Part shown: in pieces, positions 16,129-57,724 of the stretch
How the letters are laid out: every line of letters begins with the position of its first letter
Position numbering within the stretch: the first letter of the stretch is position 1
DNA from: Alloascoidea africana
Lineage: Eukaryota; Ascomycota; Alloascoideomycetes; Alloascoideales; Alloascoideaceae
Reading direction: 5' to 3'
Length of the DNA stretch: 64,000 nucleotides
Assembly: GCA_030581615.1 (NCBI GenBank)
Contig: JAKTTT010000006.1
Span: 432,145-496,144 of the forward strand
The notes under the pieces: generated by a model
Database searches by the model: none
Seen by the model: only the letters and a program-made list of their open reading frames with translations
What the model was told of the DNA's origin: nothing
Translations under genes and position numbers: made by a program

Positions 16129-16868
16129 TGACTATAATCAAATGTACTTCTTTTGAACAACCGCCCGCCACTCTGTTTCCATAGCCAGACATTTTCCTTT
16201 GACTGGATAATGTAGCCTATAGACCTAAAATTCAATGTAATGAAAATTGATAATTTTTGGTGTTCAATGGTGACCAGTGCAAAGCCGTATGTTTCTGAGC
16301 ATTTGGATTTTTTTGACGTAGCAAACACACAATATCAAATCTCGATAAATCCATTTGAATTTTACATTTTAGTTGTATATGTGTAATGGAAACTGACTGT
16401 GTTTCTTAATGGATCGAAGGCATAATCAACTCAAAATGTTCAGACTTCGCTTACGACATTATATCTATGCATACTGAACATTGAACAAAAAGACTATATA
16501 CCACAGGAATCATGACAAACTGTAGAATTTGTCCCTAGTTTTACATTTATAATAAACAACAACATGTGGTTAGGATACTCTTAACTGTGTTCTTCACAAT
16601 TGAACCTTAATCTGCAAAAGAACAATCAATGTACGGGCATATGAGGAATATGTGAAAAAATGGTTCCAATTTTCTCCAGGTCTAACGTCTTGATTAGCCA
16701 AACCACAACATCAAGTGTCCTGATGCTCTGAGTAGTTGTAGTCAAAAGCATGGTGACTATTTATCCAAAGTGGATAACGGAAGCTCGAAGCTTCTCATTG
16801 TATTCCCCAGATGCCCAACAATCCTCACCGGCAGTTGGCAAACATTTGTGTAATGATTTGAATACTAT
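16129..16868. other. convergent intergenic region, no gene seen
   Basis: Lies between the 3' ends of CWC22 and the zinc-finger gene. AT-rich with no convincing ORF, RNA gene or repeat. Confidence 0.5.
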
Positions 16869-54458: not shown

Positions 54459-55943
54459 CTAGGAAGAAGTTATCTCGTATTTTCCTTCTCCAAGTAGTCT
54501 AATAGATTTTTCACAATGTGGAACTTCATTTTCCACATGCCCAACCACCAATACAGTACCATCCCAAGCATCGATAATTTGCTTGCATTGCTCAACTCGG
54601 GAATCCTCCATGGCGGATAGCGCTTCATCCAAAATCAAAATTTGTGGATACTTTGCAATAGCTCTAGCGAAAAGTACAGTTTTCTGATCACTAATTGTCA
54701 AATCTTTAAACCGAATGGTTGGTTCCAATCCAAACTCATCGATCAATTCGCAAACGCGTTCGTGTTGCTTCTCTGTCAACTTTGGAGGTATGAATATTCC
54801 TTCTGCAAACCCAGTTGCAATCGATTCATAGACACTCAGTCTGGTAGGAAACAAGGCATGTATTTCCGGTGCAGCGTGCCCTATTAATGCACTGTTGGAA
54901 AAGTAATCCGATTTCCCAGTTTGGCGAGGCTTTCCAAACATGACGATTTTCTTGTTCCAGGATTGAGGATGGTCTGCCGTGATCAATGAAAGCAACGTGC
55001 TTTTCCCAGTTCCATTGTCACCTCGAATGTGCCACTTGTCACCGGCCTTGACGTCCCATGAAATCTTATCGAGAACAGCCTGGCCCTTGTAACTTACAGA
55101 TATTTCATCCAGCTTTATAGCACTTTCACGGGATTCTGACTTTTTTGAACTGTTTTTGCTTTTCAAAGCCAGTCTTTCCTTCCTCAAAAGAGCGCTTAGC
55201 CTTTTCAATTCCTCGTCCTTCTGTCGTAGTTCCGTTATATGTGATTCAACAAGCTCTTTTTCACCACTAGCGATAATGCCTTGCTTGTCAACAATTGCAA
55301 CATGTGTTATCCAGTTGGGAAGAGCATCTTGATACCGTAGACCAACAATCACATGGGGAGATGGTGGCAGCCTTCCAAGCAAGTCTGTGATCTTCTTCAA
55401 GGCTATCGGATCAAGACCTAGGAAAGGATCATCTGCAACGAGAAGCTTGGGACGTCTGTAGAGCGCTTTTGCAAAGCGGGCCCGTCTCATCTGACCATTA
55501 CTTAGACCCATTGCCCACCTATCCTCAAACCCGTTCAAGTTCAGTTTCGACAGTATATGCTCGACAAAGTCCTCTTCGCCGGATTTTACCTGCCTCTTCC
55601 CGGTAATTAGTTCCAGGACAGTTTCGTCCTCCTGCAAGTCTTTGAAAAACTCATAACGGGCTGACAGATGAGGTGTTGGTTTAACCCCTTGGAATTGAAG
55701 CAGCTCGATCGCAGACGAAGGCCAAAACTGCTTATTCAGAAATGGGTAGGTCAATGATAATGGGTTTTCCGGAATGTACTTTGATGCCAAAACCTGGAGC
55801 AATTCCGTCTTGTGCGATCCAATTACAGCCCATCGCTGGCTATCCCGTATCGTGAGATTGAGAGCAGACACAAAAGGGAGTTTACGAATATGGGACACGG
55901 GCCGGACGACAAAGTTGTCCAGCTTCACCAGCACTGAAGTCAT
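54459..55943 (-). CDS. soluble two-domain ABC ATPase, YDR061W-like
   Basis: A 494-residue protein with two nucleotide-binding domains and no membrane segment. NBD1 (about 1-240) has an unusual Walker A (WAVIGSHKTELLQVL, no GxGK), an intact signature (GLSNGQMRRARFAKAL) and Walker B (LLVADDPFLGLD). NBD2 (about 280-494) has a canonical Walker A (IRGDNGTGKSTLLS). Its signature is degenerate (LTISDQKTVLFARA), and Walker B plus Glu read ILILDEALSAM. The complementary defects imply one competent composite site. The linker is Lys-rich. The layout matches the yeast YDR061W group, reported near mitochondria, whose substrate is unknown; relatives include bacterial PhrA/ModF-like ATPases. Confidence 0.8.
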   Translation of the reverse strand: MTSVLVKLDNFVVRPVSHIRKLPFVSALNLTIRDSQRWAVIGSHKTELLQVLASKYIPENPLSLTYPFLNKQFWPSSAIELLQFQGVKPTPHLSARYEFFKDLQEDETVLELITGKRQVKSGEEDFVEHILSKLNLNGFEDRWAMGLSNGQMRRARFAKALYRRPKLLVADDPFLGLDPIALKKITDLLGRLPPSPHVIVGLRYQDALPNWITHVAIVDKQGIIASGEKELVESHITELRQKDEELKRLSALLRKERLALKSKNSSKKSESRESAIKLDEISVSYKGQAVLDKISWDVKAGDKWHIRGDNGTGKSTLLSLITADHPQSWNKKIVMFGKPRQTGKSDYFSNSALIGHAAPEIHALFPTRLSVYESIATGFAEGIFIPPKLTEKQHERVCELIDEFGLEPTIRFKDLTISDQKTVLFARAIAKYPQILILDEALSAMEDSRVEQCKQIIDAWDGTVLVVGHVENEVPHCEKSIRLLGEGKYEITSS

Positions 55944-56085
55944 GACTAGCTGTGATTCTGTGCGGGCGGAAACTGACAGGTTTGTCCAGCTTCAGCTTCT
56001 GGGGGGCCGATTACCCGTCCCTGGCCGCGCCTGAAACCTCCTTCTCCAGCGCTCTTGTCCTCCTCGCCATCACTAGCTGCCCACC

Positions 56086-57724
56086 ATGAATGAAGAGTAC
56101 GATGTTATTGTTTTAGGTAAGCATCTCCTCTAGTCCCTGACCCTCTAGGATTTTCGGATCTAACCAACTACGCACATCTAGGTACCGGTAAGTTCAGCCC
56201 TGTGCCTCCAGCGAGTTTGATCTCAAAGTGCACACCCACCCTTTTTCACAATCAAGCAAATCACCATCAGGATCACACAGCTGCGCAATCTAACAGGACT
56301 CCACCACGCTTGTATAGGACTTACCGAATGTATTCTGTCCGGACTCCTCTCCGTCGACGGAAAGAAGGTTCTACACATTGATCGTCAGGATCACTATGGT
56401 GGGTAAGTAGTTGCTGTCATTTGCTGTGCAAGCTGTCCTTCTGGCGCCGCCTCTTATTTTGGAGCAAAACATGTCGTCTAACTGAACCAAATGATGCAGT
56501 GAGAGTGCCAGTTTAAACTTGACACAATTGTACGGCAAATTCCGTCCTTCTATGAAGCCTGATGAAAAGCTTGGTCGTGATCGCGATTGGTGTGTCGATC
56601 TCATTCCAAAGTTCCTCATGGCTAATGGCGAGTTGACAAACATCTTGGTTCACACAGATGTGACTCGATACATTGAGTTCAAGCAAATCTCTGGCTCCTA
56701 CGTTTATCGAAGTGGCAGAATTGCCAAAGTTCCAGCTACTGATGTCGAAGCAATCTCATCTCCTTTGATGGGCATTTTCGAGAAGAGACGTATGAAGCGC
56801 TTCTTGGAGTTCATTGCTGGATATCAAGAAGATGATCAGAAAACCCACCAGGGTCTTGATTTGGATAAAAACACTGCAAATGAGATTTATGATAAATTTG
56901 GATTGGAAACCGGGACGAAAGATTTCATTGGACATGCCATGGCTCTATGGTCTAACGACAACTATTTAAATGAGCCTGCCCGTGAGACCTACAATAGAAT
57001 CATCCTGTATGTACAATCTGTCCAGCGATATGGCAAGAGTCCTTATATCTATCCCTTGTATGGATTGGGAGAGTTGCCCCAAGGTTTTGCTAGGCTATCT
57101 GCAATTTACGGTGGAACCTATATGCTCGATACACCTGTTGATGGCGTTTTGTACGATGACAGCGGGAAGGCCATCGGAATCAAATCGGGGAATGATACAG
57201 CCAAGGCCCCAATCATTATTGGAGACCCTACTTATTTCCCAGACAAGGTGAAGAAGACTGGCAAACAGGTTATTCGAGCAATGTGTATCTTGGAACATCC
57301 TATCCAGAACACTGATAATGCTGACTCGACCCAGATAATCATCCCCCAGTCACAAGTTGGACGAAAGAATGACATTTATATCGCTGTTGTTTCAAGCGCT
57401 CATCATGTTTGCACCAAACCTCATTATTTGGCCATCATTTCCACAATTATTGAGACTGACAAGCCACACGTTGAGTTGGAGCCCGCGTTCAAGATCATCG
57501 GACCCAGAAAGGATGTGCTGATGGGAATTTCCGACCTTTGGGAACCAATTTCTGATGGTAAATCGGATAGTGTTTATATTTCCAAGAGTTACGACGCTTC
57601 TAGTCATTTTGAAACCACAACTGATGACGTCAAGGACTTGTATTTTAGAATCACTGGTAAACCTCTTGTACTAAAGAAGAGACCTACTGCTGAGGAAGAA
57701 GAGGCATTGGCGGGACTATCCTAA
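56086..57724 (+). CDS. GDI1: Gdi1, Rab GDP-dissociation inhibitor, four exons
   Basis: Exons 56086-56116 (31 nt), 56182-56187 (6 nt), 56318-56402 (85 nt) and 56500-57724 are separated by introns of 65, 130 and 97 nt. Each has a GTAAG donor and a TCTAAC branch. They encode 448 residues, against 451 in S. cerevisiae. The 6-nt exon completes the conserved [13 protein letters not shown] dinucleotide-like motif. Skipping it would keep the frame but delete Gly-Thr. [15 protein letters not shown], the SCR segments [61 protein letters not shown] and [16 protein letters not shown] follow. Gdi1 extracts prenylated Rab-GDP from membranes and is essential for the secretory pathway. Confidence 0.95.

Follow-up and report, generated by a model that had tools for sequence, protein, structure and literature searches.

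We propose that the six bases at positions 56182-56187 of the window, the whole stretch of 64,000 nucleotides of Alloascoidea africana DNA that was analyzed, are very probably a genuine and constitutive coding microexon of a Rab GDP-dissociation inhibitor (GDI) gene, GDI1, and that the two flanking introns would be recognized by intron definition. The evidence comes from the sequence of the gene, from an enumeration of its possible splice models, from a second GDI copy and from gene models built elsewhere in the genome. The GDI microexon appears to be real yet not unique, because the diverged paralogue has it and similar exons were modelled in other genes.

Results

Structure and identity of GDI1

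GDI1 is a complete gene on the forward strand with four coding exons of 31, 6, 85 and 1225 nt, which join in frame to encode a product of 448 amino acids (Table 1). The junctions read TTA G|GT ACC G|GA CTT, corresponding to L-G-T-G-L; exon 2 provides the end of one glycine codon, the threonine codon and the start of the next glycine codon. Both introns flanking exon 2 carry a GTAAG donor, a CTAAC and a TAG, which places the exon within the definition of a microexon as one of at most about 30 nt between two introns with complete signals. Direct joining of exon 1 to exon 3 keeps the frame and changes the motif to LGLTEC. Retention of intron 1 introduces a stop at codon 16, and retention of intron 2 causes a frameshift.

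The spliced protein matched the Pfam GDI family (PF00996) with 745.4 bits against a cut-off of 23, covering profile positions 1-434 of 436. Its top PDB matches were 3cph and 1ukv (746.4 bits), which we take to be yeast GDI. On this evidence, the predicted product is a Rab GDP-dissociation inhibitor with a full-length GDI domain. When GDI was used to scan the viral contigs, no relative was found.

A preliminary description of this locus had given exon and intron coordinates that proved exact to the base. Its account of GTACCG lying between a 65-nt and a 130-nt intron with clear signals was likewise borne out, as were its assignment of the threonine and parts of both glycine codons to exon 2, the in-frame loss of motif residues upon direct joining and the identification of the gene as GDI. 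It had also called LGTGLTEC invariant, which was too strong, as the best-matching solved GDI reads LGTGITEC; the T-G that the microexon contributes is nevertheless identical.

Upstream of GDI1, 142 bp (55944-56085) separate its ATG at 56086 from the start of an open reading frame on the opposite strand (54459-55943). This reading frame resembles an ABC-type ATPase and may share a two-way promoter region with GDI1.

Table 1. Features of GDI1 (positions in the window) and the other modelled coding exons of 6-14 nt
Feature	Position	Strand	Length or sequence	Remarks
GDI1 exon 1 (coding from ATG)	56086..56116	+	31 nt	10 residues and first base of Gly codon; in-frame join
GDI1 intron 1	56117..56181	+	65 nt	GTAAGC...TAG; branch-site-like CTAAC 56160-56164
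GDI1 exon 2 (microexon)	56182..56187	+	GTACCG, 6 nt	splice-model uniqueness; paralogue exon GCACTG
GDI1 intron 2	56188..56317	+	130 nt	GTAAGT...TAG; CTAAC 56290-56294
GDI1 exon 3	56318..56402	+	85 nt	28 residues
GDI1 intron 3	56403..56499	+	97 nt	GTAAGT...CAG; CTAAC 56478-56482; paralogue equivalent 82 nt
GDI1 exon 4	56500..57724	+	1225 nt	includes stop codon
ERV14-like microexon			AATGTG, 6 nt	gene model
COX9-like microexon			CTCTGA, 6 nt	gene model
HRB1-like microexon			GGTTGTGG	gene model; protein match spans exon
Alpha-tubulin microexon			TTGGCCAGG, 9 nt	inside INVGQAG; gene model
Glutaredoxin microexon (gene locus L097)	within G000:C6:114800-115750		CTATTGCCC, 9 nt	first Cys of CPYC active site
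Cofilin microexon			TCTCGATCCGG	gene model
Mitochondrial carrier microexon			TCGGTGCTTGTG	gene model
V-ATPase c microexon, two copies			13 nt	gene models
DIC1-like carrier microexon, two copies			14 nt	gene models; match spans exon
Actin microexon			AAGAAGTTGTTGCT, 14 nt	gene model; match spans exon

Uniqueness of the splice model

With intron 3 fixed, we enumerated GT-AG splice models across 56086-56402 that contain one intron or two, each 40 nt or longer. In 87 models (9 with one intron and 78 with two) the reading frame continued through LTEC to the stop codon, and a single one of these, the proposed model with the six-base exon, produced VLGTGLTEC. The 201 bases at 56117-56317 were put through 20,000 dinucleotide shuffles. 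The arrangement AG-NACNG-GT arose in 148 of the shuffles, 6 also had a GTANG donor, and none combined both with a CTAAC branch site. When both strands of the window were scanned under relaxed conditions and hits inside stop-free stretches of at least 300 nt were dropped, the GDI1 site and one other, at 16246, were left.

Removal of the microexon lowered the Pfam score of GDI1 from 745.4 to 732.3 bits and that of the GDI paralogue from 735.2 to 722.1 bits. The conserved protein sequence thus needs exon 2, as judged by this fall and by the one model in 87; the score of 732.3 bits is still very high, and the Pfam profile alone does not demand the exon. Taken with the shuffles, the enumeration led us to reject a chance origin of exon 2.

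A diverged paralogue with the same exon

A search of the same genome with the GDI family returned five stretches, which we read as three genes: GDI1, another GDI on contig C26 and a less closely related gene on contig C10. Of 448 aligned columns, 352 are identical between the second GDI and GDI1 (79% amino-acid identity). The pair differs at 91 of 139 fourfold sites, so that silent sites are near saturation; this count was used because dS of the pair was saturated and incomputable. The plan of the C26 gene is an exon of 31 nt, an intron of 77 nt, the microexon GCACTG, an intron of 61 nt, an exon of 85 nt and an intron of 82 nt. GTACCG and GCACTG encode identical residues at the same site and differ only synonymously, and conservation of the microexon was therefore seen in the one paralogue compared.

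The introns of the two copies are 41-55% identical, with z-scores, computed against mononucleotide shuffles, of 2.9 for intron 1, 2.9 for intron 2 and 0.7 for intron 3. Shared splice signals could be the cause of the slight excess likeness of introns 1 and 2. At the corresponding place, the C10 gene, presumably a Rab escort protein, reads VGTGLVE and has no intron. From these comparisons, the GDI microexon would most likely be older than the duplication and held by protein constraint, that is, by its coding content.

Other very short exons modelled in the genome

The genome was searched with patterns in which a branch site (CTAAC or CTGAC) and an AG were followed, a short stretch later, by a strong donor (GTAWGT or GTAWGC), after which hits were read and gene models were built by hand. 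Because the patterns select for strong signals, signal strength at the microexons found is not interpretable. The searches returned 18, 68, 55, 32 and 29 overlapping rows, and the reversed-pattern controls returned 41, 221, 150, 69 and 94; with the controls more numerous, the raw numbers carry no weight, and the evidence lies solely in the gene models.

By eye, 42 hits were read, comprising the two GDI sites and 40 others. Fourteen gave coding models with an exon of 6-14 nt, two were 5′-UTR-like (both RPL43-like), three belonged to longer small exons, again judged by eye (ALG3-like, TMA19-like and ZWF1-like), and the remaining 23 were chance matches, continuous exons or cases with no clear call. 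The 14 modelled exons, with both GDI copies counted, fall into 11 kinds of gene (Table 1), and they are a lower bound rather than a census, coming from strict patterns and from the part of the rows that was read. We presumed the gene names from similarity, aided for some by Pfam or PDB. These searches and models led us to reject the idea that GDI1 exon 2 is a one-off.

Seven of the 14 microexon lengths are divisible by three and seven are not. When the in-frame microexon was left out, the Pfam score dropped in six of the seven proteins tested, which are all six that match any family; besides the two GDIs, the score fell from 173.2 to 158.1 bits in the ERV14-like protein, from 67.6 to 51.8 in tubulin, from 139.7 to 131.3 in the carrier and from 68.6 to 51.2 in glutaredoxin. 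The COX9-like protein had no Pfam match with or without its microexon, and what backs its model is that it aligns to solved Cox9 without gaps. The Pfam matches of V-ATPase c and cofilin start downstream of the microexon and do not cover it; both exons agree with the yeast proteins, and that of V-ATPase c is additionally backed by a paralogue pair. Across the three paralogue pairs (GDI, V-ATPase c and DIC1-like), the microexons show six differences in total, every one of them synonymous (P ~3e-4; 1.3e-3 if only transitions are considered).

The gene copies that share a microexon lie on contigs C6 and C26 (GDI), C23 and C29 (V-ATPase c) and C9 and C16 (DIC1-like carrier), and the 23-Mb genome may contain many old duplicates. 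The 5′ end of the alpha-tubulin gene (L074, G000:C21:262100-263300) is divided into exons of 25, 9, 32, 27 and 76 nt, and its fifth intron has a GC donor (GCAAGT); the best PDB chain for tubulin is presumably that of S. cerevisiae, in keeping with a budding yeast. In the two RPL43-like genes (L081, G000:C128:5300-6300; L082, G000:C31:162050-163050), the start codon is apparently split by an intron (AT|G), and in each case this follows 11 nt that may form a 5′-UTR exon. A 26-base pattern match with a would-be 2-nt exon, GA, occurred twice (G000:C41:12496-12521 and C62:536-561), once near a contig end, and may represent a repeat instead of a microexon.

Properties of the modelled introns

The 38 introns modelled in 12 genes range from 53 to 466 nt. 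Those that adjoin a microexon, 24 in number, measure 56-466 nt with a median of 80.5, against 53-253 nt with a median of 79.5 for the other 14. Of the 38 donors, 25 read GTAAGT or GTATGT, and the best CTAAC-like site is located 11-27 nt upstream of the intron's 3′ end. Upstream of the microexons, 4 of 12 introns exceed 180 nt; in GDI, every intron is short. Skipping of the GDI microexon would leave a fused intron of 201 nt in GDI1 and 144 nt in the paralogue, inside the modelled range.

Discussion

For GDI1, we infer splicing as modelled, constitutive inclusion of exon 2, intron definition and sequential intron removal. In this putative mechanism, each short intron flanking exon 2 would be recognized across the intron, through its donor, CTAAC branch site and AG. 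Removal of the two introns would probably be sequential, since around an exon of 6 nt the branch-site complex of the first intron would crowd U1 bound to the second donor. The resulting mature mRNA would read VLG-T-GLTEC. In yeast splicing, recognition across the intron is compatible with introns that are short and have complete signals, and exon size then matters little. The preliminary description had regarded exons this small as hard to define by exon recognition; this objection would have little force if recognition spans the introns, as the sizes of 65 and 130 nt in GDI1 and 77 and 61 nt in the paralogue suggest.

We considered whether the GDI microexon might instead be alternatively spliced, with a sizeable or regulated share of transcripts skipping it in frame and yielding a GDI of lower activity that lacks the threonine and one glycine of the N-terminal loop. 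Its length of six bases keeps the frame, both GDI copies have it, and the fused intron would be of an ordinary size for this gene set. However, half of the modelled microexons (7/14) are not multiples of three, which makes the class unlike a frame-keeping regulated set; the GDI introns are 41-55% identical between the copies, which seems little conservation apart from the slight likeness of introns 1 and 2, and the residues lost upon skipping are conserved in the matched solved GDI. We consider such regulation very unlikely. A broader speculation holds both that core genes of this lineage are unusually rich in 6-14-nt exons bearing invariant or catalytic residues and that the level of in-frame inclusion, in both GDI copies and in glutaredoxin, might serve to tune protein activity, which for GDI means Rab recycling; from the sequences at hand, we regard this combination as very unlikely.

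Two further readings would deny the six bases a place in the protein, or would grant it to them by accident, and both seem to us exceedingly improbable. In recursive splicing of a stwintron-like kind, intron 1 would be removed first and the newly formed donor G|GTACCG would then be used, leaving the six bases in no mRNA. Stwintrons do occur in filamentous fungi (PMC6616335), and the six bases of GDI1 begin with GT directly after the AG, but the paralogue exon GCACTG has no GT at that place, GTACCG is a poor donor beside the GTAAGT six bases downstream, and the product would lack the T-G of the motif. We rejected this model on the re-formed donor, which is GT in GDI1 but GC in the paralogue. 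That the six bases merely happen to restore the motif, with a different 5′ structure in reality, gains something from the little information that six bases carry and from raw genome-wide pattern matches no more numerous than their reversed controls. Against this, the full signal set never arose in the shuffles, no other enumerated model gives the motif, and the paralogue has the same structure with synonymous change. We therefore retain the constitutive coding microexon as our reading.

The preliminary description held that exons of this size are very rare in budding yeasts, a view that the paralogue exon, the 14 modelled microexons and a published case do not support. According to the accessible text of one report (PMC2911113), internal exons in multi-intron genes of Yarrowia lipolytica are mostly short, and the shortest exon, in YALI0E34170g, measures 4 nt and is backed by two cDNAs. 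Budding-yeast microexons being known from this example, the GDI1 exon would join an existing kind. The two cases share a very short coding exon in a multi-intron budding-yeast gene with short introns. They differ in that the Yarrowia exon lies in apparently another gene (GDI1 is unmentioned in the accessible text), in its cDNA backing, where the GDI1 exon is predicted from sequence, and in donors, which are GTGAGT in Yarrowia and mostly GTAAGT or GTATGT here (25/38). In the open-licence literature on introns of GDI1 or Rab GDI, we found no report of the six-base exon described here. For Geotrichum candidum, the available text gives 0.56 introns per gene with a median of 71 nt (PMC4479816).

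Outside budding yeasts, exons of a single nucleotide are described in Arabidopsis APC11 (PMC4674806) and Fusarium CYP621A (PMC12940212). As far as the consulted parts of these reports go, they are constitutive tiny exons within a conserved protein motif, as we propose for the GDI1 exon; they are, however, shorter still, break the frame if skipped and are backed by transcripts. The Trichoderma Xlr2 microexon, as presented in the text seen (PMC11121469), is also fungal and alters protein content, but Xlr2 is a transcription factor whose microexon inclusion is glucose-dependent, and nothing at GDI1 points to regulation. Stwintrons, as outlined in the accessible sections (PMC6616335), likewise bring two introns close together with hardly any sequence in between; in stwintrons a splice signal of one intron is broken up by another intron, whereas the GDI1 introns are each complete and the bases between them are coding. 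Excerpts of a further study note that Mago and Y14 are kept in several early-branching budding yeasts (PMC6351623). In the present genome, four stretches on the reverse strand (G000:C42:174117-174793) match Mago, an exon junction complex subunit, as in an intron-split gene.

Gene finders easily miss exons so short, and without the microexons described here, conserved parts would be lost or frame-shifted in GDI, actin, tubulin, glutaredoxin and V-ATPase. With several microexons, some of them in gene pairs with largely changed silent sites, this compact genome is a natural test case for how the yeast spliceosome removes two introns six bases apart. The benefit lies in annotation and in the study of intron definition, rather than in a new kind of biology.
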